From NCBI GenBank assembly GCA_028871815.1, contig JAGWMJ010000008.1:62001-126000 (forward strand): a stretch of DNA of 64,000 bases, written 5' to 3'. The position numbers and the translations under genes are program-made. Origin of the DNA: Armatimonadota bacterium (GTDB lineage: Bacteria > Armatimonadota > Chthonomonadetes > Chthonomonadales > Chthonomonadaceae). The notes below the pieces were generated by a model that saw only the letters and a list, made by a program, of their open reading frames with translations, did no database searches and was not told where the DNA came from. Shown here piece by piece: positions 38,604 through 54,974 of the stretch (its first letter is position 1; every line of letters begins with the position of its first letter).

Positions 38604-39587
38604 ATGGCAAAACCGGATCGGATCCGCCTCCTGACGGCGCCGCACACCGATACGACGCAGGCACTGCTGGGCGTGGTGATGGCTGGTCTCCAGGCGCCGC
38701 AGAAGCACCTGCCATGCCGGCTGCTCTACGATCGGCGCGGTTCGGAGCTGTTCGAGCAAATCTGCCGCCTGGACTCCTACTACCTGACGCGCTGCGAACA
38801 GGCAATCTTTGACGCTTCTGCGGCACAGATTGTACAGGTGGCCGACATGCCGCGCGATGTCGTGGAGTTCGGCTGCGGCTCCGCCCGCAAAACGCGTGCT
38901 CTGCTGGAGGCGGCCGGCGGCCGGCGCAGACCCATGCGGTTCACGGCGATCGACATCTCTCGCGACTTCCTGATCGGCAGCGCTCAGGCTCTGCTGGATG
39001 AGTTTCCGCTGATGCAAATCACATGCATCGCTGCGGAATACAACGCTGCGCTCACCATGCTGCCCGCTGCAAGTGGGCCAAGGCTGTTTCTCTTCCTCGG
39101 CAGCAATATCGGTAACTTTGATGACCCGGATGCCGTAGCGTTTCTCACGAGTGTACGCGCCGTGATGGCTCCCACCGATCACTTGCTTACTGGTGTCGAC
39201 CTGGTAAAGGATCCGGCCCTGCTTCACGCCGCTTACAACGACCCGGAAGGCGTTACCGCCGCGTTCAATCTCAACATCCTCTCGCACCTGAACCAGGCGT
39301 TCAACGCCAACTTCGCACCGGAACAGTTTCTTCACGAGGCTGTATGGGCTGCCGAGCCGGGCCGGATCGAAATCTCGCTTCGGAGCCGGTGCGACCAGGA
39401 GGTCTGGATCGGCGCTGCGGGAGCACACGTTCGGTTTGCCTCGGGTGAGCGGCTGTATACCGAAAGCAGCAACAAATACGATGGAGCCCGATTCGCCGCT
39501 ATCAGCCGGTCAGCCGGGCTGAAGCCGGTGAACCAGTGGCTTGATGATCGTGGTTGGTTCGCTGAGTTTCTATCCAGGCCCGCATGA
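38604..39587 (+). CDS. egtD: L-histidine N(alpha)-methyltransferase
   Basis: 327 residues, the usual EgtD length. It trimethylates histidine to hercynine with S-adenosylmethionine, the first step of ergothioneine synthesis. Diagnostic text: LPCRLLYDRRGSELFEQICR, LDSYYLTRCEQAI, VVEFGCGSARKTRALLEA (SAM site), FTAIDISRDFL, LFLFLGSNIGNFDDPDA, LTGVDLVKDPALLHAAYND and the substrate-domain IEISLRSRC. The stop overlaps egtB by 4 nt (ATGA), so the two are translationally coupled. Confidence 0.96.
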   Translation: MAKPDRIRLLTAPHTDTTQALLGVVMAGLQAPQKHLPCRLLYDRRGSELFEQICRLDSYYLTRCEQAIFDASAAQIVQVADMPRDVVEFGCGSARKTRALLEAAGGRRRPMRFTAIDISRDFLIGSAQALLDEFPLMQITCIAAEYNAALTMLPAASGPRLFLFLGSNIGNFDDPDAVAFLTSVRAVMAPTDHLLTGVDLVKDPALLHAAYNDPEGVTAAFNLNILSHLNQAFNANFAPEQFLHEAVWAAEPGRIEISLRSRCDQEVWIGAAGAHVRFASGERLYTESSNKYDGARFAAISRSAGLKPVNQWLDDRGWFAEFLSRPA

Positions 39588-40867
39588 TGACCACCACGGC
39601 CCGCAAAGCAGCGCTCGCTGCCGAAATGGCTGCCACGCGCTTGCGGACCATACAGTTGATGAGCTTCGCACCGACCGCCTGGTGGAACCTCAGGGTGCAT
39701 GATTTCTACAGTCCGATAGGCTGGCACTTCGGCCACATCGGCATGACCGAGGAGCTTTGGACGGTTTGCCGTACCGGCGCGCAAAGCCCGCTGGACGACG
39801 GCCTCGCCTTCCTGTTTGCCAACGTCCCGGAGAACCCGAAGGAAGACCGCGTCCGGGTGCCGGATCCTGAAACAACATCACGCTACCTCAGCGCCACGCG
39901 GGATCGGTCGCTGGAGGCGATGGCGAGCGCCGGGTTCGAGAACAACGACCGGCTGCTTCAAAACGGTTATGCGTGGGAGTTTGCGCTGAGGCATGAGCAG
40001 CAGCACCAGGAAACGATCGCCGAACTGCTGCACATTCTGACCCTGCACGCCGGATCGCCATCAGAGAGTTTGCGGAGCCTTGCAGACCCGGTGTCGTCAC
40101 GGACCGGTTATGTACAGCATCCCGCCATCACGTTCGAAATGGGTTCTTGCAACCCGTTGCACTACGACAACGAGGGCCGAAGGCACGCCGTACGGACCGA
40201 TGGATTCGAACTTGCCGCACTTGCCGTTACATGCGGAGAGTGGCTGGCGTTTATGGCCGATGGCGGGTATCGACGGCGCGAATTGTGGGGTGAGGCCGGC
40301 CGCGCGTGGTTGGAGTCCTTTGGGCTTGCGCACCCGGCGTACTGGCGGGAAGCGCCAGATGGCGGATGGGTGTCGGCCGGTCTGCAAGGTTACCGCGAAC
40401 TTGCGGCGGACGAGCCGGTTTTTGGCATCTGCGCCCTGGAGGCCGAGGCATACGTCCGATGGGCCGGAGCGCGCCTTCCTACCGAGGTGGAGTGGGAGGC
40501 CGCTGCCTCTGGCGGCTGTAAAACCTATCCATGGGGCGATGAGGAGCCGGATGGTGAGCGCGCAGACTTTGCTCTGAACGGTCACTCGCCGAGTGCCGTT
40601 GGCGCGCACCCGGCAGGCGCGACCGCAGCCGGGATTCAGGATCTGGCCGGCGGGGTGTGGGAGCACACGGCCACCATCTTTGCCCCATATCCCGGGTTTG
40701 AGCCATATCCGTACGACGGCTATTCGCTGGAGCATTTCAACGGCGAACACCGGGTATGCCGCGGCGGATCGTTCGCGACGGCCGGCCCGCTGCTGCGCTG
40801 CACGTTCCGCAATTGGTACATACCCACATATCGCCAGGGGTTCTTGGGCGTGAGGCTGGCAAGATGA
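39584..40867 (+). CDS. egtB: Ergothioneine sulfoxide synthase
   Basis: 427 residues. Iron(II)-dependent enzyme that joins hercynine to a thiol with O2. It has an N-terminal DinB-like domain and a C-terminal FGE/sulfatase-modifying domain. The iron ligands are visible: HFGHIGMTEE (His48/His51) and LRHEQQHQETIAELLH (His137, His141). FGE blocks include WLAFMADGGYRRRELWGEAG, ARLPTEVEWEAAASGG and RVCRGGSFATAGPLLRCTFR with the closing NWYIP-x-YRQGFLGVRLAR. No egtA or egtC lies nearby, so the sulfur donor may be cysteine itself, as in the type II EgtB enzymes; that is inference. The C-S lyase step (egtE) is also not in the window. Confidence 0.94.
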   Translation: MMTTTARKAALAAEMAATRLRTIQLMSFAPTAWWNLRVHDFYSPIGWHFGHIGMTEELWTVCRTGAQSPLDDGLAFLFANVPENPKEDRVRVPDPETTSRYLSATRDRSLEAMASAGFENNDRLLQNGYAWEFALRHEQQHQETIAELLHILTLHAGSPSESLRSLADPVSSRTGYVQHPAITFEMGSCNPLHYDNEGRRHAVRTDGFELAALAVTCGEWLAFMADGGYRRRELWGEAGRAWLESFGLAHPAYWREAPDGGWVSAGLQGYRELAADEPVFGICALEAEAYVRWAGARLPTEVEWEAAASGGCKTYPWGDEEPDGERADFALNGHSPSAVGAHPAGATAAGIQDLAGGVWEHTATIFAPYPGFEPYPYDGYSLEHFNGEHRVCRGGSFATAGPLLRCTFRNWYIPTYRQGFLGVRLAR

Positions 40868-41610
40868 TTCGATTTGAGGGTGTAAGCCGGAAGTTTGGTG
40901 CAGTACGCGCGCTGGACCAGGTAAGCCTGGAGGTACAGACGGGCCGTACCACGGCGCTCATCGGGCCGAGCGGATGCGGAAAATCAACACTGCTCAAGCT
41001 GGTGCTGCGGCTCCTGGCGCCAACGGAGGGTCGCATTCTGCTGGACGGAAAGCCGATTGAAGCGACGCCGGCGGCGGACCTGCGCCGCCGCATTGGGTAT
41101 GTGACGCAGGATGGTGGCCTGTTTCCACATCTTACCGCGCGGCGAAATGTGACGTTGATGGCCCACCATCTGCAAATGGACGCCGAGAGCGCTGCTCTGC
41201 GTGTATCCGAGTTGTGCCGGCTGACGCGCTTTCCCGAAAGTGCGCTCGACCGATATCCCCTTGAGATATCGGGCGGGCAGCGTCAGCGCGTCGCGCTCAT
41301 GCGCGCTCTGATGCTCAAGCCCGAGCTGCTTCTGTTGGACGAGCCGCTGGCTGCGCTTGACCCAATGGTACGTGCCGGGCTCCAGACCGATCTCAAGGCG
41401 ATCTTCGGCGAATTGGCGACCGTGGTGTTCGTAACGCATGATATGGCCGAGGCGGCGTACCTTGGCGACGAGATTGTGCTGCTTCGAGATGGCCGCCTGG
41501 TGATGAACGGCTCGCTGGAAGACCTGTGTCTTCGGCCCGCCGACGGCTTCGTCACTGAGTTTCTTGCGGCCCAACGCGGATTCCAGATGCCGATGGAGGC
41601 GTCCCGATGA
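40864..41610 (+). CDS. ABC transporter ATPase, OpuBA/EgtV-like
   Basis: 248 residues. Walker A GPSGCGKST (34-42), Q-loop GYVTQDGGLFPHLT, signature LEISGGQRQRVALMRALMLK, Walker B ELLLLDEPLAALD and the switch histidine VFVTHDMAEAAYL. This is the OpuBA/ProV branch of quaternary-amine importers but lacks the C-terminal CBS domains, so it has no nucleotide-sensing tail. It overlaps egtB and the permease gene by ATGA on both sides, which ties it to ergothioneine synthesis. The ergothioneine importers EgtUV belong to this same branch. Transport direction of an OpuB-type system with a binding protein is inward. Confidence 0.93.
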   Translation: MIRFEGVSRKFGAVRALDQVSLEVQTGRTTALIGPSGCGKSTLLKLVLRLLAPTEGRILLDGKPIEATPAADLRRRIGYVTQDGGLFPHLTARRNVTLMAHHLQMDAESAALRVSELCRLTRFPESALDRYPLEISGGQRQRVALMRALMLKPELLLLDEPLAALDPMVRAGLQTDLKAIFGELATVVFVTHDMAEAAYLGDEIVLLRDGRLVMNGSLEDLCLRPADGFVTEFLAAQRGFQMPMEASR

Positions 41611-43097
41611 TGCGACTTGCCTTACGGGTCGGCGTCGTATTCGCACTTGCCACCCTTACCGTCGTTGGCAACGCGCAGAGCGTCATCGTCGGCTCGAAGC
41701 GGTTTACCGAAAGTTACGTTCTGGGCGATATCGCGCAGATGCAGCTGCGGCGCGCTGGGATAGCCGCCCAACACAAGCAGGGCATGGGCGGGACCATCAT
41801 ACTCTGGCGCGCCCTTACCAGCAACGCCATTTCGCTCTACCCGGAGTACACGGGCACCATCAGCGAAGAGATTCTGAAGCACCCGTCGGCAATGACCGAC
41901 GATGCGCTTCGAGCCGCGCTGAAGCCGATGGGAATCGGCATGACGCCGGGATTGGGCTTCAACGACACGTACGCCCTGGTTATGCTGGCCAGCCGTGCGC
42001 GCGCGCTGGGCATCAGCCGCATCAGCGACCTCCGGAACCATCCGAACCTCGTTTGTGCACCAACTCCGGAGTTCCTGGGCCGCAAGGATGGATGGAAGCC
42101 GATGTGTGCGCGATACGGTCTGCACATGACCAATGTGCGCGGCGTTGACCACGCCCTTGGCTACGAAGCGCTCAAGAAGGGCGAAATCGACCTCAAGGAT
42201 GCCTACTCCACCGACGCCCAGATTGCAGACGATCACCTGACGGTACTCACCGACGATCTCAACTTCTTCCCGGGATACCGCGCCGTATACCTCTACCGCC
42301 TGTCGCTTCCCCAGACTGCGGTGTCGGCGCTGGATCGCCTCTCCGGTACGATTGACGACGCCAAAATGCAGCAGCTGAATGCGCTGGCGGAGCACCAGAA
42401 AGACTATCGGGCTGCCGCCCGAGCGTACTTTGGTGAAAGCCCTCACGCCGGCGGCGGCCGACTGCGCCTTGCTCGTGACATTGTCGGCTACACACTGGTG
42501 CACCTCAAGCTTACGGGCCTCTCGCTGCTGCTGGCCGTGGTGGTCGGCATTCCGCTCGGCATCGTCGCCGCGACTCCCGGCGCGCGGGCTTCGGTGATCC
42601 TCGGCGCCGTCGGCACCATTCAGACGATCCCGTCGCTGGCGCTGCTTGCACTGCTGGTTGCCGTGCCGATGCTTGGCATCAGCGCCCGGACAGCCATCGT
42701 GGCGCTTTTTCTCTACAGCCTGCTGCCAATTGTGCAGAACACGGCGACCGGCCTGCGCGATATACCCGCGCCGACTCGCGAGTCGGCGGAAGCGCTTGGC
42801 CTTCCATCCACAGCGCGCCTGCGAAGCATCTATCTGCCGATGGCGTCGAGATCGATTCTGGCGGGCATCCGCACCAGCGCGGTCATCAATGTTGGCACGG
42901 CAACGTTGGCGGCCCTCATCGGCGCCGGTGGACTGGGTGAGCCCATTATCAGCGGACTGAACCTGAACGACACCGGCCTGATTCTGGAGGGAGCGATCCC
43001 GGCAGCAGTACTGGCGCTGCTGCTCCAGTGGGGCTTCGAACTGCTGGATCGCGTGGTGATCCCGCGTGGACTGCGGCTACAGAACGTAAAGGATTGA
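41607..43097 (+). CDS. Binding protein-permease fusion, OpuBC/EgtU-like (reversed order)
   Basis: 496 residues in two parts. Residues 1-23 are a signal sequence, and about 24-270 a periplasmic quaternary-amine binding protein (VIVGSKRFTESYVLGDIAQM, KQGMGGTIILWRALTSNAIS, LYPEYTGTISEEIL; hinge CAPTPEFLGRKDGW). From residue 285 on is the permease, five or six helices with the EAA loop TRESAEALGLPSTARLRSIY and GAGGLGEPIISGLNL. In the EgtU and OpuBC fusions known to me the permease comes first and the binding protein last, so this order is reversed. With egtD-egtB directly upstream and overlapping, ergothioneine or hercynine is the likely cargo; betaine or choline is the alternative. Confidence 0.92.
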   Translation: MMRLALRVGVVFALATLTVVGNAQSVIVGSKRFTESYVLGDIAQMQLRRAGIAAQHKQGMGGTIILWRALTSNAISLYPEYTGTISEEILKHPSAMTDDALRAALKPMGIGMTPGLGFNDTYALVMLASRARALGISRISDLRNHPNLVCAPTPEFLGRKDGWKPMCARYGLHMTNVRGVDHALGYEALKKGEIDLKDAYSTDAQIADDHLTVLTDDLNFFPGYRAVYLYRLSLPQTAVSALDRLSGTIDDAKMQQLNALAEHQKDYRAAARAYFGESPHAGGGRLRLARDIVGYTLVHLKLTGLSLLLAVVVGIPLGIVAATPGARASVILGAVGTIQTIPSLALLALLVAVPMLGISARTAIVALFLYSLLPIVQNTATGLRDIPAPTRESAEALGLPSTARLRSIYLPMASRSILAGIRTSAVINVGTATLAALIGAGGLGEPIISGLNLNDTGLILEGAIPAAVLALLLQWGFELLDRVVIPRGLRLQNVKD

Positions 43098-44385: not shown

Positions 44386-44851
44386 TGCAGGGAGTCATCC
44401 GAGCATGGCCGGCGCGATGCGGAGCAGAATGTGAAGCCCGTATGCCGTGCAGAAGCCGCCCGCGCGTACAGCACTATCGCCGTGGCGTATGCGATTGAGA
44501 GGTCCACGGAGGCGCGGATCCGACAGGTCGATGAGATCCATTCGGTGCCGGCTGTTATTGAGGGCGATTTACGGCATCACACGCTGCGCTTCGCTAATGG
44601 GTGGAATGACTCTGCTGCGATGCGTGATAATGGTCTTCTAGCGCCACGAACGTTTTTGACTCCGTCTTCGCCGTGTGTTCAGGTGACGCCCCGCCCATGG
44701 CAGTACGCGTTGGTGAGCCTCACGTTAAACTGCTCGCAGCGCCGCAATTCAGCCAGTGACGCGCGCGAAAGGGTGATTAGTTTGCACTCATGTGGTCAAT
44801 TGGCGACATGGCAAGCAGGATTCTAAACTGTGCGCCTGTAACCTTCTGTCG
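44386..44851. other. Gene-free stretch before the first propeller gene
   Basis: Roughly 465 nt with no credible gene. A 131-codon frame (44431-44826) lacks any domain, has poor composition and no ribosome site, and I do not call it. From 44831 the sequence begins to resemble that before the second propeller gene. Confidence 0.5.
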
Positions 44852-44929
44852 TGTTGTCAACTGCGTCGACTCGTGACGGCGCCGGTAACCGGCGCATGCA
44901 GAACTCTACAGAATCAGGAGGCTGTTGGA
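44852..44929 (+). repeat. Duplicated 78-nt leader, copy 1
   Basis: Identical base for base to 46652-46729, exactly 1800 nt away, with weaker similarity reaching back to 44831. It contains the dyad GTTGTCAAC (44853-44861), the near-perfect palindrome GCGCCGGT-A-ACCGGCGC (44879-44895) that can form a hairpin or bind a dimeric regulator, and the ribosome site AGGAGG (44916-44921) of the propeller gene. Confidence 0.9.
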
Positions 44930-44930
44930 A

Positions 44931-46292
44931 ATGAAGGTACCGGCACGTAACGCGATCGGTGTGTTGCTGCTAATGATTTCCTGCAGCACGTCCCAGGCTC
45001 AATGGCGCCATACTTTCGCCGATCCGCTGAAGGCGGGTGGGACTACCGGTTGCATTGGGATGGGCGTGGATGCCAACGGAAACGTGGATGCGCTGTTTAC
45101 TGTAGCCACGACCTCGGCAACCAATCCATTTACATTTGTAATAGCCCAATACAGCCAGTCCGGCGCCAGGATATGGGAACGCACCGGACCGGCAGGCTGC
45201 CTGGCAGGATCCCTACTAGTTCGACCTGCCGGCGACATTTACATCAGCGCACAACTGGAATCACCCTTCAGCGCCATGCTGTTTCACCTTGCATCCAACG
45301 GTGCATATCTGTTCGCTCGCACATACAGCGGTGTACCGTTCAACGCGTTTCCGGTGACCTCTTCGCGGGGATTGGCTTCGGACAGCAGCGGTAATGTGTC
45401 TATCGCTATGGCAGGCCTGCGTATCGTGTTTTTGCCGTCAGCTACCGACCAGCCTATTGCGGTTGTGTTGAAAGTGAATCAGAACGGATTCCCTCTGTGG
45501 GCCAACTCTTACGTCGGCACAGCAGGCGCGGCTTTGACCGGCATTGCCACCGACGCCGTCGGGGACGTGATATTCGAAGGGACCCGGCTTTCTTCGAATC
45601 CAACCGAACTCACCGGAATGTTCGCGACCGGTAACGGACAACTCCTTTGGGCGCGGCAGTTCCAGGATCCAGGGAATCTCGGCGCGGCGGGGCTCGGCAT
45701 CGCCTCCGACCCGCTGAGTGGGGCGATATTCACGGCAGGATCGGCCCAGATTAGTTCGTCCAACGCTGGAGTGGTGCTGCAGAAGCTGGACGTTGCGGGC
45801 CAGGTGCTGTGGCGCCGTGTGTTGTCGAATGGCGACTTTGCCAACGCCGTCTATCCACATATCGCCATTGACGCCAATGACAACGTATTCATCGGAGGCT
45901 CGCAAAACGGCGAGCCAGGCGTGGCGCAGTTCGACGCGAACGGCGACTTCCGCTGGCTGCGCAAATATGCGATGCCGGCCGGGTTTGGCCCGCCCTCCGT
46001 CTTTGGATCCGCGGTCTCAAACCTCGCCGTAACCAAAAGCGGAAACTCGATAATCGACGGAGCCATGTTCTCAACAGCGAACGGCGGCACCGGCTACTAC
46101 TTTGTGCTGAAGTACTCGCCAACCGGAGCGAGGCTGAACGCAGACTTCGTCAAAGCGCCAGTCGGCTTCACATTCGATCAATCCAGCGCCGGCCTGGCTT
46201 CGGACCTGTCGGGACATATCGACTGGATAACCGACCAACTGAAGGAACAAGACAGCTCCGGCGAGGTAGGGGTGTTGGGCCAATTCCCCTAG
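44931..46292 (+). CDS. Secreted beta-propeller-like repeat protein (copy 1)
   Basis: 453 residues from the ATG at 44931, 9 nt after AGGAGG. A signal peptide (GVLLLMISCSTSQAQ) is followed by sheet-forming repeats of the SBBP/delta-60 kind: GMGVDANGNVDALF, LASDSSGNVSIAM, GIATDAVGDVIFEGTR, GIASDPLSGAIFTAGS, AIDANDNVFIGGSQNG and GLASDLSGHIDWI. These D-x-x-G-N-V turns at about 60-residue steps suggest a six- or seven-bladed propeller. The protein is about two-thirds identical by eye to the next copy, with the signal region most divergent. The function is unknown; secretion and adhesion or cell-surface binding are the usual guesses. Confidence 0.85.
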   Translation: MKVPARNAIGVLLLMISCSTSQAQWRHTFADPLKAGGTTGCIGMGVDANGNVDALFTVATTSATNPFTFVIAQYSQSGARIWERTGPAGCLAGSLLVRPAGDIYISAQLESPFSAMLFHLASNGAYLFARTYSGVPFNAFPVTSSRGLASDSSGNVSIAMAGLRIVFLPSATDQPIAVVLKVNQNGFPLWANSYVGTAGAALTGIATDAVGDVIFEGTRLSSNPTELTGMFATGNGQLLWARQFQDPGNLGAAGLGIASDPLSGAIFTAGSAQISSSNAGVVLQKLDVAGQVLWRRVLSNGDFANAVYPHIAIDANDNVFIGGSQNGEPGVAQFDANGDFRWLRKYAMPAGFGPPSVFGSAVSNLAVTKSGNSIIDGAMFSTANGGTGYYFVLKYSPTGARLNADFVKAPVGFTFDQSSAGLASDLSGHIDWITDQLKEQDSSGEVGVLGQFP

Positions 46293-46390
46293 ACGCCGCG
46301 CAGTGCGATTGCAGGCGCCTGGACAGCACTTCCTGACGCCGGTGCTGACGTCAGAGCGCGGACCGGTTTGCGCATCTGACTGGCCGGTGG

Positions 46391-46430
46391 AGCGGTAATC
46401 CGGAAGGCTCGCAACTGCGGGATTACCGCT
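46391..46430 (+). terminator. Inverted repeat after propeller copy 1
   Basis: AGCGGTAATCC (46391-46401) and GGATTACCGCT (46420-46430) pair perfectly over 11 bp with an 18-nt loop. It lies 98 nt after the stop and is followed by CATTTACC, so the U-run is weak; a terminator or 3' stabiliser is likely. Confidence 0.55.
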
Positions 46431-46651
46431 CATTTACCTCACCAGTGCCCTATGTTCAGGCATCCGTGACGACCGCCGAAGTTGGCCTAACACCACCGTG
46501 ACGCTTCGGAGGGACACGCGCGGGGCGGTACTCTTCCGCACGGCGGTCGCACCTGCGATGCCTGAAGTCCCAGGAGTCTCTTGATATCGGACGGCAAATT
46601 CACATTGTGGAAAAGAAGGATGATTAATGGTGCGCATGCAATCTTCTGCAC

Positions 46652-46729
46652 TGTTGTCAACTGCGTCGACTCGTGACGGCGCCGGTAACCGGCGCATGCA
46701 GAACTCTACAGAATCAGGAGGCTGTTGGA
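46652..46729 (+). repeat. Duplicated 78-nt leader, copy 2
   Basis: Second identical copy of the leader before the second propeller gene, with the same dyads, the palindrome at 46679-46695 and AGGAGG at 46716-46721. The 220 nt between the first gene's terminator-like repeat and this leader hold nothing recognisable. Confidence 0.9.
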
Positions 46730-46730
46730 C

Positions 46731-48095
46731 ATGAAGACCCGGGTACATGACCTGATTTGCGCGCTGGTGCTAACGCTCTGTTGCGGAGCGGCACACGCGC
46801 AATGGCGCCATACCGTGCAAGATCCGCTGTTCGTCGGTGGTTCAACGCACTGCATCGCCATGGGTGTAGACGCCAATGGCAATGTCGACGCGCTGTTTCA
46901 GGACGCGACAACTGCCAATGCCAGTCCGGTCACGTTTGTGATAGCGCAGTACAGCCAAGCGGGCGCCAAAATCTGGGAACGGACGGGTCCTTCGAATTGT
47001 ACGCCATTGTCGCTTCTAGTTCAGAAGACTGGAGATATCTACATCACTGCAGAGCAGACATCTTCCACACCTGCGCCAATGCTGTTTCACCTGGCATCCG
47101 ACGGCACGTATCTGTTCGCGCGCACCTACATTGGCGTACCGTTCGGCGCTACTCCGATTGAGGCTCCGGGCGGCGTGGTAGCCGATAGCAATGGTAATAT
47201 TTCGATTGCGTTGGGCGGTCAACGCCTCGTCTCAACCAACACGGAGTATATTGCGGTTGTGATGAAAGTGAATTCGAACGGCTTCCCGATGTGGACCAGC
47301 TCTTACACGGGCACTGGAGGCACGGCGCTGGCCGGCATCGCGACCGACAGTGCGGGGAATGTGATTTTCGAGGGTACCAGATTCGCTTCGGCGAGCAGCC
47401 TCGCAACATCGAGTCAGCTCACCGGAATGTTTGCATCCGGTACCGGGCAACTGGTCTGGACGCGGCAGTACCACGACTCCGTCGGCGGCGCCGACCTTGG
47501 TCAGAACCTCGTTGTAGACACGCTTAGCGGCGCAATATTCACGGTGGGGTCGGCTCGCGTCTCCGCCACCGTCGAAGGCGTCGTACTGCAGAAGCTGGAC
47601 GATTCCGGCCAGGTCTTCTGGCGCCACGTCTTATCAGACGGCCCCTTCGATTTGGCTGTCTACCCAAATATCGCCATCGATGCTAATGATGACGTATTCA
47701 TCGCCGGCTCGCAAAACGGCCAACCGGGAATAGCACAGTTTGATGCGAATGGCGACTTTCGATGGCTGCGCCGGTACGCGTTACCCGCCGGGTTCATCAG
47801 CATATTCAACAACAACAGTACGAGTAACCTCGTGGTTACCAAGAGCGGTAACGCGATATTGGATGCCTCCATGGTTTCGACCGCCAACGGGGGAACCAGC
47901 TATCTCATCGTCCTGAAGTACTCTCCAACCGGCGACAGGCTGAGTGCCGACTTCGCTAAGGCGCCGACCGGCTTCGACATCTTGACCGACCCGGCCGGCC
48001 TGGCATCGGACCTTTCGGGCCACATTGACTGGATAGCCGATCAGTTCCCGGCCACCGGCACCGGGTTTGCCGGCGTTATCGGTCAGTTTCCGTAG
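46731..48095 (+). CDS. Secreted beta-propeller-like repeat protein (copy 2)
   Basis: 454 residues from the ATG at 46731. Same plan as copy 1: a signal peptide (ALVLTLCCGAAHAQ), then propeller-type repeats GMGVDANGNVDALF, VADSNGNISIALG, GIATDSAGNVIFEGTRF, VVDTLSGAIFTVGSA, AIDANDDVFIAGSQNG and GLASDLSGHIDWIADQF. Both proteins begin QWRHT after signal cleavage. Difference between the copies is spread along the length, so the duplication is not recent at protein level although the leader is unchanged. Confidence 0.85.
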   Translation: MKTRVHDLICALVLTLCCGAAHAQWRHTVQDPLFVGGSTHCIAMGVDANGNVDALFQDATTANASPVTFVIAQYSQAGAKIWERTGPSNCTPLSLLVQKTGDIYITAEQTSSTPAPMLFHLASDGTYLFARTYIGVPFGATPIEAPGGVVADSNGNISIALGGQRLVSTNTEYIAVVMKVNSNGFPMWTSSYTGTGGTALAGIATDSAGNVIFEGTRFASASSLATSSQLTGMFASGTGQLVWTRQYHDSVGGADLGQNLVVDTLSGAIFTVGSARVSATVEGVVLQKLDDSGQVFWRHVLSDGPFDLAVYPNIAIDANDDVFIAGSQNGQPGIAQFDANGDFRWLRRYALPAGFISIFNNNSTSNLVVTKSGNAILDASMVSTANGGTSYLIVLKYSPTGDRLSADFAKAPTGFDILTDPAGLASDLSGHIDWIADQFPATGTGFAGVIGQFP

Positions 48096-49666: not shown

Positions 49667-50914
49667 TCACTCCGGTACCACAAAATCGCTTAACCGGTAC
49701 CGCGTCGCCATCGCCTTTATGCTTTTGGCGGTCACCGGAAAGCGCCATTGGCGGAACACAGGAACCAGGTCGACGCGCGCCTCGCGCGCAAGAATCGCGG
49801 CAATCAGATTGATCTTTCCCTCGGGCGTTTGCGGTGGCTTCAGACCGGCGTCCTGAAGCTTGCCGTATGTGCGGTACCAGCCTCGGAAAATGCGCCAGCC
49901 ATATGCCACCTGCAGCCGTTGGAAAAAGGTGTGCATTTCGTCCGAGGAGAGCGTGTCCCACGTCCGGTGCGGATCGGCCAGGTAGCGGTCGCCTACCAGC
50001 AGGAAGAACCGCTCTACCAGCTGAGGGCCGGTAAGGCGCATGTTTTGATCAGGCGATGGGTAGCCGGGCGCCTGGAACGTCCACTTGATGCGAAACGACT
50101 GGTCTTTGATGTGCTCAAATGCGTAGCAGAGTTTGAAGTTTGCCTGGAACTCTGCAGCCGCTCCGCTCCAGATGTACCAATCGCCCAGCGTATCAAAGTT
50201 GTGGCCCATTTCGTGCACCCAGCCAAACGAAATAAGGCCGTCGTCGAAGTCCTTCAGGGTGGAGGCAACGTAGTCGGTGTTCAGAATCATGTGCTCGCCG
50301 GCATACGCCCACCAGGGATGCGGCGGCGATTCCTGGAACACCATGCGCCGACCCTGAAACGGAACCTGACCGGTGAGCTGAATCATCGCCTGGTACGCCT
50401 CGTCCATCCAACGCAGCGTTCGATTCAGCTGGTGAAACTGTAGATAGCGCGACCGCATCAGCGCCAGTTCAACGGTTTTGCCGCGGACCGTCTTTAGCGG
50501 CTCCGGCAGCACGGCTGCCGGCACGGTGATGGTATAGGGAATCCGCAGGCGTGAGCCTTCCGCCAGCACGGTGAACGCGCCATGGATTTCGGCGGAGCCC
50601 GGCCGGGCGGCGGCTGCGACGGTGGACGGCAGCTCTCCAATTTCACTACGCGTTACCGTTGCACGGGCAGCCAGGCTCTGTCCGATATTCCCGCCCCACG
50701 GATCGCCCACTCGCTTACCGCCGGCAACCCAGTGCGCCGACCACTTCACCAACTGCACCGGCGCGGCCGTGCCATTCGTGATAACAAACTGATAACCGCC
50801 CCACCCGCCGGCCATCCATCCGGTTGTCTGGGTGTTTGCGGCCTTTATCGTCACAGACGGCGTTTGGATCATCGCCGCAAGCGCAGCGACAAACGGCGCA
50901 GGAGCAAGCCTCAT
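49667..50914 (-). CDS. M60-like zinc metallopeptidase
   Basis: 415 residues with a short signal peptide (APFVAALAAMIQTPS). The gluzincin site is complete: WVHEMGHNFDTLGDWYIWSG (His234, Glu235, His238) and the third ligand in AAAEFQANF (Glu255), in the H-E-x-x-H-x16-E spacing of the M60/enhancin group. An N-terminal beta domain (residues 20-135) and a C-terminal helical domain (SDEMHTFFQRLQVAYGWRIF) flank it. M60 enzymes cleave glycoproteins such as mucins. The start overlaps the end of the GH51 gene by 4 nt, so both would be expressed together. Confidence 0.83.
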   Translation of the reverse strand: MRLAPAPFVAALAAMIQTPSVTIKAANTQTTGWMAGGWGGYQFVITNGTAAPVQLVKWSAHWVAGGKRVGDPWGGNIGQSLAARATVTRSEIGELPSTVAAAARPGSAEIHGAFTVLAEGSRLRIPYTITVPAAVLPEPLKTVRGKTVELALMRSRYLQFHQLNRTLRWMDEAYQAMIQLTGQVPFQGRRMVFQESPPHPWWAYAGEHMILNTDYVASTLKDFDDGLISFGWVHEMGHNFDTLGDWYIWSGAAAEFQANFKLCYAFEHIKDQSFRIKWTFQAPGYPSPDQNMRLTGPQLVERFFLLVGDRYLADPHRTWDTLSSDEMHTFFQRLQVAYGWRIFRGWYRTYGKLQDAGLKPPQTPEGKINLIAAILAREARVDLVPVFRQWRFPVTAKSIKAMATRYRLSDFVVPE

Positions 50915-53328
50915 CGCGCCGCGGGGCTTATTCGCCCGAGCGGAGCGCTCAGAACGGTAACCGACCAGGCCGGAAATGTATGTGCGAAGGCAGCGCGCAA
51001 GCGCACCGGCGCCCGGAGTCTGGGCGCAACGGCGGCCGGATCGGATGCGGTGTTCTCGGCGTCCGGGCTGGCGGCTGTAAGCACCTGCTGTTCGGCGATG
51101 AGGCTGCGCCGTCCAAGGGCCGGTATCTGCACATCGGCAACCTCGTTTGCGGAAGCGCTATTCACGACCGTGATAATAAGTCGCCGATGCGTGCTATCGA
51201 TACCGGCCGACGCGAAGAGCGATGGCGGTGGTGCGTCGGTAACCGACTCCACCAGTCGACCATCCAGCCAGCATCGGATCGTGGCGCCGGCAACCTGAAT
51301 ACGGATCCGGTACCACCGGCCGGTCTCCACATGATCCGGAACGTAGCCGCCTACCAGCGACTTTCCGCCATCTACCGACTTTTCGATTCCATCCTGCGTG
51401 TTTGCCCAACCGCCGATGTTCCACCACGTCCAGTTGCGGGCATCCTTCACGTGGAACATCACCAGAAAGCCCTCCGATCCTCCAAGCTTCCGGGCATCCA
51501 GCGTCAGCGTGTAGTTTGTCCAGCTCGGATCACCCGCCGTGCCGAAGTGGTTGTCGCCGGGGGCGGTCTGCTCCAGGCCATCGTCACCGTTGCTCCATGC
51601 CCCACTTTGCGGCGCGAAACCGCCACCACTGCCGACGGTCAGTGGGCCGTTCAGGAGCCTGGCGCCGTCCGGCGCCGTCACCCTCACGTTCCGGAACACA
51701 GCCTGGGTGTTCCAGGTTCCAAGTCCGATGCCTCCGGATGCGGCCGCCGGCGCCGGCGCAGGCTGCCGGAGCTTGAGTGGAAGCATGACTGTTGGTCGGT
51801 TCCGGCCAAACATCTGCTGTACATAGTACGAGGGCGTGCCCCATGAGTGCGCGTCGTTGAACTGGATGGCGTCGGGGTTCCAGAACCGGTCGTGCACGTT
51901 CACAAAGAGCGGCGCATACGAGGCCATGCGCACGATGTCGGAGTTCCGTTCCAGGCCGGTCATAAAGGCCGCCTCCGCCACCGCGGCACGCAGGTTACCG
52001 TGGCCGCAATCCTGCGTTACGGCGTACTCACCCACGAAGATGCGGGGTCCGCTCCGCTTGTAGCTATCGTATCGCGCGGCATTCTGGAAAAACCACTGCG
52101 GTGATGCATAGTAGTGCTCGTCCAGATAGTCCATCGGGCGGCTGGTAACGGGCCAGGTGGCAATCAGCCGGAGGTACGGGTAGTGTGCCTTGAGCGCGTC
52201 GTAGAACATGGCGTAGCGCGCGTTGTATGCCGGCCCACTCTCTTCGTTGCCCACCTCCACCAGCCTCAGGTTGAACGGTCTCGGGTGCCCGTACCTGGCG
52301 CGCAGAGCGCCAAACTTTGTTGTAACCGCGCCGTTGGCAAACTCGATGGCATCGAGGGCGCTCTGTATCCATGGCTGCAGTTGATCCAGGGGCACATTGG
52401 CCGTATGCGACATCCCGCAGTTGAAGCCGAACAGCGGCTGTGCGTGCAAATCCTCGCACATCTGCAGGTACTCAAAGAAGCCAAGTCCATCGGTGGAATG
52501 GTAACCCCAGAGGTCCCAGTGACCGGGGCGGAGCGCCGGATTGCCCAGGCTCTTCTTCCACTGAAACGCATCCTGCAGCTTGTCGCCCTCCACGTAGCAG
52601 CCGCCGGGAAACCGGATGAATGCCGGATGGACGGAGGCGAGTTTCGCCGCCAGGTCGGCGCGCAGGCCGTTCGGCCTGCGGTGGAAGGTATCGGTTGGAA
52701 AGAGCGAAGCAAACGCCACTTCGGCCCCGCTTCCGGGCGGCACAGCCAGCAGCAGGCTGGCATGTGCGTCCGAGACTTTCGGGATCATCCGGACGGTGAT
52801 CCGTCGCCATTCCCGGCCCAGCGCGACGCGATATGGAGGGCTGCCCGGATGCAGGCCCGCGGTGAGAATCTGCGCCTCAATGGCGCCGTTGACCGCAGCG
52901 GTCGACCGGGCGTAGAGCGTAAGCGTGCAGCCAGTGCCGGCCTGAACGCTTATGCCCCAATATCCCACGTTGCGCGCGCCGCACCAGGCGGCGGCGCGCG
53001 GCGGGGCAGCGAGCTTCAGGTAGTTGGGGTGTGCCGTGGAGAGCGGTCGGGCATGACCAACCTGCAGCGGCGGCTCCGCCGATGGGAACGGCAGCCACGC
53101 GGTCAGTGGGTTACGGGCATCAAACTCGCGGTTGCGCAGCATCTCGGCATACAAGCCGCCATCGCCCGCATGGTTTATCTCTTCAAAAAAGATGCCGAAT
53201 AGGCGCGGACTGACGGCAACCCCGCGGTGGGCGAGATCGATGCGGATAGCTGCCGGCGGCGCCGCGGCAGCGATAAACGGCGCGAGCACGCAGACGGCAG
53301 CGAAAAGCGGATTCAGTGTTGGTTTCAT
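50911..53328 (-). CDS. GH51 alpha-L-arabinofuranosidase with inserted CBM-like domain
   Basis: 805 residues with a signal peptide (LFAAVCVLAPFIAAAAP). The GH51 barrel shows SPRLFGIFFEEINHAGDGGL, FIRFPGGCYVEGD, the acid/base LVEVGNEE (Glu362) and the nucleophile RIFVGEYAVTQD (Glu434), then ERNSDIVRMASYAPLFVNVH. It removes arabinofuranosyl units from arabinan or arabinoxylan outside the cell. Between about residues 525 and 690 a jelly-roll module is inserted into the C-terminal sandwich (GLEQTAPGDNHFGTAG, LVMFHVKDARNWTWWNIGGW); it resembles CBM66/DUF1080-type carbohydrate-binding domains. The start lies 134 nt from the divergent GH32 gene. Confidence 0.9.
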   Translation of the reverse strand: MKPTLNPLFAAVCVLAPFIAAAAPPAAIRIDLAHRGVAVSPRLFGIFFEEINHAGDGGLYAEMLRNREFDARNPLTAWLPFPSAEPPLQVGHARPLSTAHPNYLKLAAPPRAAAWCGARNVGYWGISVQAGTGCTLTLYARSTAAVNGAIEAQILTAGLHPGSPPYRVALGREWRRITVRMIPKVSDAHASLLLAVPPGSGAEVAFASLFPTDTFHRRPNGLRADLAAKLASVHPAFIRFPGGCYVEGDKLQDAFQWKKSLGNPALRPGHWDLWGYHSTDGLGFFEYLQMCEDLHAQPLFGFNCGMSHTANVPLDQLQPWIQSALDAIEFANGAVTTKFGALRARYGHPRPFNLRLVEVGNEESGPAYNARYAMFYDALKAHYPYLRLIATWPVTSRPMDYLDEHYYASPQWFFQNAARYDSYKRSGPRIFVGEYAVTQDCGHGNLRAAVAEAAFMTGLERNSDIVRMASYAPLFVNVHDRFWNPDAIQFNDAHSWGTPSYYVQQMFGRNRPTVMLPLKLRQPAPAPAAASGGIGLGTWNTQAVFRNVRVTAPDGARLLNGPLTVGSGGGFAPQSGAWSNGDDGLEQTAPGDNHFGTAGDPSWTNYTLTLDARKLGGSEGFLVMFHVKDARNWTWWNIGGWANTQDGIEKSVDGGKSLVGGYVPDHVETGRWYRIRIQVAGATIRCWLDGRLVESVTDAPPPSLFASAGIDSTHRRLIITVVNSASANEVADVQIPALGRRSLIAEQQVLTAASPDAENTASDPAAVAPRLRAPVRLRAAFAHTFPAWSVTVLSAPLGRISPAAR

Positions 53329-53462: not shown

Positions 53463-54974
53463 TTGAAAAGCTTCGTTGGGCTCACGGTGACCTGGTTGGC
53501 GTTGGCCACTACCCTAGTCGGCCATGCCGGAGGAGGTTCCACGTTGATGAAACGCGACCCGAATGCAATGACCGACCGTATGCGCCCACAGTACCACTTT
53601 CTGCCGGCGTCCAATTGGATGAACGACCCCAATGGGCTGATCCAGTTCAACGGTGTGTACCACATCTTCTACCAGCGCAATCCATTTGCCGCCACCTGGG
53701 GGCCCATGTACTGGGGCCACGCCGAAAGCCATGACCTGGTCCACTGGCGGTTGATGCCGGATGCACTCAAGCCCGACTCACCGGCCGATAAGGGTGGTGT
53801 GTGGACCGGCTGCATGGTGGATGACAAGGGCGCTCCTACGGCGATATACACCGGCGTCGAACCGCAGTGCGTATGCATCGCCACCGGCAATCGCGATCTG
53901 TCGCGATTCACCAAGTACGTTGGCAATCCGGTCGTCCCGGCCCAACAGCAAGCCATGGGGCTCACCGGGTTTCGCGACCCCTATGTCTGGAAGCAGGGCA
54001 GCTGGTGGATGATGGTGGTCGGCGCCGGCATCCCGGGCAAGGGCGGCGAGCTGCTGCTATACCGCTCACGTGATCTGAGGCAGTGGGAGTCGCGCGGAAC
54101 GGCATTTGTGGGCGATCGCGATCAGCATCCCGACATGTGGGAGTGTCCAAACCTGTTCCGCCTTGGCACAAAGTGGGTGCTAATCATCTCGAACGGGCAG
54201 ACCTGGTGGTATACCGGCACGTTCCGCAACGGCCGCTTTTCACCGGAGAAGACCGGCCTTCTCGACGCGGGCAATTCCCTGTATGCACCACAGACTTTCA
54301 AGGATGCTCGCGGCCGACGCATCCTGTTCGGATGGCTTCGCGAAAACCGCAGCGACGCGGAAGCACATGGATGGCAGGGCGTGATGTCGCTGCCACGCAT
54401 CCTGAAGGTGGATGCGAATGGTGATCTTACACAGGCGCCCGCGCCTGAATTGCAGCGCCTCCGTGCCAGGTCTACGCACGCAACCGCGATCAAACTGACG
54501 CAGCGCGAAGGCTTTTTGCCACTCAAAGACTTTGAGAAGCTGGGCGATGAGTGCGAACTGCAGGCTGTTCTAAAGCCGGGCCAGGCAGGCCGCGTGGGAT
54601 TGGTGGTTGCCGCTACGCCGGACGGTGTGGAGCAGACGCGGATTGAGTACAACGTGCGGCGTGGCGGCATCGATGTGGACCGCTCTCGCTCCAGCCTGTC
54701 AAAGTCGGCCGATGCCGGTACGGTATTCTTACCGGCGGAGTTGGATTCAGCGGGTGAAATACGGCTCCGCATATTCGTCGACCGATCGGTAATTGAGATA
54801 TACACTGCCGACGGGCAGTGCATGGCTGTGCGGATCTACCCCACGCGGCCCGACGCAATGGCGATGGGTGTTACAGGGGATCCGGGCGGCGCCATCGAGG
54901 CGCTTCGTGTGAACCGTATGCGGTCCGCGATCCCGAGCGTAGGCGCCGCCGAAATCGAACCAACGCAAGAGTAG
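53463..54974 (+). CDS. GH32 fructan hydrolase (levanase/invertase family)
   Basis: 503 residues from a TTG at 53463, chosen because it supplies a signal peptide (FVGLTVTWLALATTLVG); the first ATG at 53547 would lose it. The five-bladed propeller has the nucleophile ASNWMNDPNGLIQFNG (Asp55), the transition-state stabiliser FRDPYVW (Asp172) and the acid/base MWECPNLF (Glu227). A C-terminal beta sandwich follows with IFVDRSVIEIYTADG. It releases fructose or fructo-oligosaccharides from fructan or sucrose outside the cell. The aldo/keto reductase gene begins 11 nt later. Confidence 0.94.
   Translation: MKSFVGLTVTWLALATTLVGHAGGGSTLMKRDPNAMTDRMRPQYHFLPASNWMNDPNGLIQFNGVYHIFYQRNPFAATWGPMYWGHAESHDLVHWRLMPDALKPDSPADKGGVWTGCMVDDKGAPTAIYTGVEPQCVCIATGNRDLSRFTKYVGNPVVPAQQQAMGLTGFRDPYVWKQGSWWMMVVGAGIPGKGGELLLYRSRDLRQWESRGTAFVGDRDQHPDMWECPNLFRLGTKWVLIISNGQTWWYTGTFRNGRFSPEKTGLLDAGNSLYAPQTFKDARGRRILFGWLRENRSDAEAHGWQGVMSLPRILKVDANGDLTQAPAPELQRLRARSTHATAIKLTQREGFLPLKDFEKLGDECELQAVLKPGQAGRVGLVVAATPDGVEQTRIEYNVRRGGIDVDRSRSSLSKSADAGTVFLPAELDSAGEIRLRIFVDRSVIEIYTADGQCMAVRIYPTRPDAMAMGVTGDPGGAIEALRVNRMRSAIPSVGAAEIEPTQE

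Follow-up and report, generated by a model that had tools for sequence, protein, structure and literature searches.

A 78-nt leader shared by two diverged tandem propeller genes: probable recent short-tract gene conversion

Why would two duplicated genes that have diverged from each other carry exactly the same DNA in front of their start codons? The question is raised by two tandem genes in a window of 64,000 nucleotides, which is the whole stretch of DNA analyzed here. Both are on the + strand: gene 1 (positions 44931 to 46292) encodes a protein of 453 amino acids with a signal peptide and a beta-propeller, and gene 2 (46731 to 48095) encodes one of 454 amino acids, 63% identical to the first. 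When the two gene neighborhoods were compared exhaustively for exact matches, the result confirmed what the initial annotation had reported, namely that the 78 nt at 44852 to 44929 are identical to those at 46652 to 46729 (both on the + strand), with a spacing of exactly 1,800 nt. No exact match between the neighborhoods is longer than this leader, the next longest being 16 nt. The further claim that the noncoding DNA is more conserved than the genes also holds, with 78 of 78 positions identical in the leader versus 66.4% nucleotide identity (62.9% at the amino acid level) between the genes. The elements ascribed to the leader are all present: the short inverted repeat GTTGTCAAC (44853 to 44861 in copy 1, + strand), the 17-bp palindrome GCGCCGGTAACCGGCGC (44879 to 44895 and 46679 to 46695, no strand assigned), and the ribosome site, a Shine-Dalgarno AGGAGG (44916 to 44921 and 46716 to 46721, + strand). 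Directly after the hairpin starts a candidate open reading frame of 12 codons, MQNSTESGGCW(K/T), whose ATG lies at 44896 in copy 1 (MQNSTESGGCWK, 44896 to 44934, + strand) and at 46696 in copy 2 (MQNSTESGGCWT, 46696 to 46734, + strand). It is without a Shine-Dalgarno sequence of its own, and its overlap with the gene start as ATGA could be due to chance or to translational coupling.

Both edges of the identical tract are sharp. On the right, the identity stops 1 nt short of each ATG, at position -1 (A versus C); ATGAAG, common to both genes, follows right after this mismatch, and the identity of the two copies then drops to about 55 to 65%. On the left, the tract is bounded by a triple mismatch (TCG/CAC). 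Beyond it, the left shoulder of copy 1 (44813 to 44851, + strand), which may include the promoter or the 5′ end of the transcript, matches that of copy 2 (46613 to 46651, + strand) at 27 of 39 positions (69%). The 20 nt of the shoulder nearest to the tract (44829 to 44848) are about 80% identical, which makes for a gradient and not a clean step. Upstream of about 44811 the two sequences are unrelated, so that the homologous DNA upstream of each propeller gene totals about 120 nt.

The propeller genes are probably old tandem duplicates, and their products are probably secreted, to judge from their sequences; a signal-peptide-like N terminus was recognized by eye in each protein. The coding regions are near synonymous saturation (NG86 dN of 0.28 and dS of 1.37, with 47.8% identity at four-fold sites). 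Within them, no identical run exceeds 16 nt, about the length expected by chance at 66% identity, and no second conversion tract was visible inside the two genes. No homology block was found downstream of them. The product of gene 1 was predicted, from three sequences only, to fold as an all-beta propeller (mean pLDDT of 70, pTM of 0.76), and Pfam gave an SBBP repeat below threshold. Searches by profile and by fold both lead to CylK, an alkylating enzyme of cyanobacteria: the profile match has an E value of 3e-7 over residues 180 to 364, and the fold match extends over most of the chain. The propeller proteins thus resemble CylK and SBBP-type beta-propellers by profile and predicted fold, but CylK is longer and shares only 19 to 20% identity with them, and we take this as a likeness and not as an indication of function. 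A third paralogue is encoded on contig C18 (L033:668-2074), with about 51% identity over the aligned protein; the leader is absent from its upstream DNA. No close homologues of the propeller proteins were confirmed outside this genome in searches of the phylum genomes, the genome contigs, and viral contigs. Distant propellers are present in 14 other genomes of the phylum, among which there is one tandem propeller pair, with just 6 nt in common upstream.

The identity of the leaders exceeds chance and is statistically striking. An unbroken run of 78 matches has a probability of about 1e-25 at the identity of four-fold sites, 3.5e-13 at that of the shoulder, and 1.8e-10 at 75% identity. Under selection alone, 78 bases would stay unchanged with P ≥ 0.05 only if the leader evolved at 2.8% of the synonymous rate or less; the figure for the coding part is about 21% (dN/dS), and in the adjoining shoulder 31% of the bases differ. 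It is unusual for promoters, operators, ribosome sites, or riboswitches to be so constrained that hardly any base may change, even in the spacers. In 504 kb of this genome, the other tandem pairs of diverged open reading frames (37 to 57% protein identity), taken from a mechanical list in which some pairs are not genes, have only 7 to 16 nt in common within 300 nt upstream, showing that long-lasting conservation of leaders is not a habit of this genome. As a yardstick for conversion, four repeat pairs of high identity from 400 kb of contig C1 were considered and set aside, being partial duplications whose flanks are not homologous.

The leader occurs at only two places in its own genome, a few other matches there being short and due to chance. 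It is absent from 290 other genomes of the phylum, where only short chance matches were seen, it has no match in the plasmid collection, and its pattern was not found in viral contigs. A match in one of the other genomes (G098) covers 29 nt inside a coding gene, and phage matches cover 39 nt within a baseplate gene (E value of 0.01); both were taken as chance. A search of 251 genomes with a covariance model built on the leader and its predicted fold recovered the same two copies and nothing else, under strict filters that could miss weak matches. No orthologous locus was found in related genomes. The initial annotation had itself counted a lack of further copies against its regulatory reading, and there are indeed none in the genome or the phylum.

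That reading proposed an RNA regulator or an operator that keeps both proteins in step, and it gained no support from the analysis of the leader itself: besides the lack of further copies and of covariance-model matches elsewhere, the fold is ordinary. The whole leader folds no more strongly than shuffled sequences, with z scores of -0.13, -0.40, -1.05, and -1.28 for various choices of ends. The isolated palindrome hairpin (26 nt) reaches -14.2 kcal/mol (z score of -2.45). Perfect inverted repeats with arms of at least 8 nt and loops of 0 to 4 nt occur at about 17 distinct places in the window, that is, about once per 4 kb, and 23 such repeats were listed in the window versus 6 to 10 in Markov shuffles. 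Since such inverted repeats are common in this genome, the palindrome in the leader is unremarkable. Neither of the leader motifs defines a regulon. The palindrome has just two exact sites, and its single-mismatch sites lie inside long open frames and look like coding sequence; GTTGTCAACTGCGTCGAC occurs within two mismatches only in the two leaders, and up to three mismatches it gives 10 matches versus 11 in the control. No Rfam family matched the leader at an E value of 1, and a P10 match at 47981 to 48076 was far below threshold. Neither a consensus sigma-70 promoter nor a terminator was seen in the leader.

A more specific possibility is that the shoulder sequesters the ribosome site. The shoulder contains CCUUCUG in copy 1 and UCUUCUG in copy 2, both of which can pair with CAGGAGG, the one difference between them being kept as a G-U pair. 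The ribosome site was predicted to pair with this strand when the RNA starts around 44829 to 44842 and ends at the start codon. For copy 1 RNAs that include CCUUCUG, the predicted accessibility of the ribosome site ranged from 0.01 to 0.44 depending on the ends, and 2 to 55% of upstream shuffles gave an accessibility equally low. Such a sequestration of the Shine-Dalgarno sequence is therefore an attractive but fragile prediction that varies with the chosen ends. Taken to its full extent, the leader would be a lineage-specific 5′ untranslated regulator of about 100 nt, in which the CUUCUG anti-Shine-Dalgarno strand, the hairpin, and the 12-codon leader frame, all under near-absolute constraint, couple the translation of the two propellers. 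We regard this as improbable; it would be an unusually rigid regulatory RNA with no known relative. A new regulator is possible, with no positive evidence in its favor among these results.

The initial annotation had framed the choice as one between selection and gene conversion, and these are the right alternatives. Recent short-tract gene conversion, with background selection for shared expression, probably made the leaders identical; judging from the sequences, we give this a probability of about 0.6. The two old tandem duplicates would each have kept some 120 nt upstream, including the promoter region, the 5′ untranslated region, and the ribosome site. Direct repeats that lie in tandem, 1.8 kb apart, make good substrates for recombination, and a recent, short, nonreciprocal recombination between them, by gene conversion or template switching, would have copied about 78 to 85 bp from the leader of one gene onto that of the other, leaving the two identical. 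As suggested by the 69% identity of the shoulder, this region was probably already similar through ordinary selection on expression and translation initiation, and that similarity would have seeded the event. The tract is bounded as conversion predicts, with 78 of 78 positions identical versus 27 of 39 in the left flank, about 60% in the right flank, and 66% in the genes. Its 78 bp also fall within the interquartile range of 33 to 244 bp (median of 101 bp) published for gene-conversion tracts between paralogues of Mycobacterium tuberculosis (PMC13061034). The short upstream matches of the other tandem pairs and the leaderless third paralogue also speak for conversion, whereas the position of the tract end next to the start codon, the gradient in the shoulder, and the lack of a second tract inside the genes speak against it. 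We infer the conversion event rather than show it because no close relative carries the locus, and we likewise infer its direction, its age, and the transcription of the leader.

Purifying selection alone would make the leader a lineage-specific cis-regulatory element, a structured 5′ untranslated region and/or an operator palindrome with the ribosome site, that tolerates nearly no change and ensures equal expression of the propellers. We consider this unlikely, since all 78 bases would need a constraint of at least 97%, the fold of the whole leader is ordinary, and the Shine-Dalgarno pairing changes with the ends chosen. Moreover, neither the genome nor the phylum nor Rfam contains a homologue of such an element, and the third paralogue manages without it. 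What speaks for selection is that a strong isolated hairpin and a consensus ribosome site lie inside the tract, that the shoulder strand pairs with CAGGAGG in both copies with the G-U preserved, and that the tract stops almost at the start codon, a position more readily expected of a functional unit than of a tract end placed at random; because of this last coincidence we keep selection under consideration. Gene conversion is preferred over selection alone because one event suffices, no extreme constraint is needed, and the tract length fits. Under conversion, the locus would be a clean case in which duplicates keep an identical control region through recombination as their proteins diverge; it would also caution against taking a sequence perfectly conserved between paralogues of the same genome as evidence for a regulatory element. 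Under selection, the leader would be an exceptionally constrained, orphan 5′ untranslated element.

Three other explanations are less probable still. The short-read assembler may have collapsed truly different or wrongly joined leaders into one consensus; the genome is a 22-contig draft, and 78 nt is near common assembler word lengths. Such an artefact is nevertheless very unlikely, given that both flanks differ, that the two loci are coherently placed 1,800 nt apart, and that assemblers normally resolve tracts that fit within one read. The leaders could also act as direct-repeat crossover points, through which gene 1 is lost or gene bodies are swapped while the 5′ end stays constant. In favor of this, variable gene bodies do follow an identical 5′ segment that includes a ribosome site. 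There are just two genes, however, both complete and both with a leader of their own; neither a silent archive nor a homology block downstream is present, the third paralogue has no leader, and we hold little expectation that it is the case. Finally, the presence of the same sequence at two places might suggest a small mobile or repeat element inserted ahead of both genes. This is hardly credible, as the flanking homology is in register on both sides of the tract, the genome has two copies only and none at unrelated sites, nothing matched in plasmids, and phages gave only short matches within a baseplate gene.

Crossover at constant 5′ segments is known from the vmp genes of Borrelia hermsii, where an upstream homology sequence (UHS) of 61 to 62 bp works as the crossover segment (PMC6011951). 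Like the leader, the UHS is a short, (near-)identical 5′ segment with a ribosome site and palindromes before diverged paralogues, but it runs on into coding sequence and belongs to a system of one expression site with about 60 silent genes (PMC6011951). The locus described here differs in having a leader for each gene, no archive, and no downstream block; no silent cassettes of the Borrelia type share the leader, both copies of which precede complete genes. The PE/PPE and other paralogous regions of M. tuberculosis offer a closer parallel, since they too combine a short tract, diverged paralogues, and a sharp change of identity (PMC13061034), whereas the tract here is noncoding leader DNA and conversion is deduced from one genome. 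In the long-lasting concerted evolution of prokaryotic duplicates, paralogues are likewise kept alike by recombination, but whole genes are homogenized (PMC6053082), while here it is the leader alone and the genes have diverged.

Other loci of the genome deserve mention. Upstream of the propeller genes, at 38604 to 43097, Pfam domains indicate an EgtD-type histidine methyltransferase and an EgtB-type protein with DinB and FGE domains, which looks like ergothioneine biosynthesis; an ABC ATPase and a fused OpuAC-permease protein follow, presumably an arrangement akin to the EgtUV-type ergothioneine transporter. On the other side of the propeller genes lie an M60-like peptidase (49667 to 50914) and an arabinofuranosidase with an inserted 3-keto-disaccharide-hydrolase domain that adjoins a GH32 protein (50911 to 53328 and 53463 to 54974). 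Elsewhere in the genome, an open reading frame at L086:17812-19173 (G000:C1:97812-99173), which we take to be Rhs/YD-repeat-like from its repeat motifs, has a partial duplicate of 657 nt about 1.5 kb downstream, with 92% identity and unrelated flanks.
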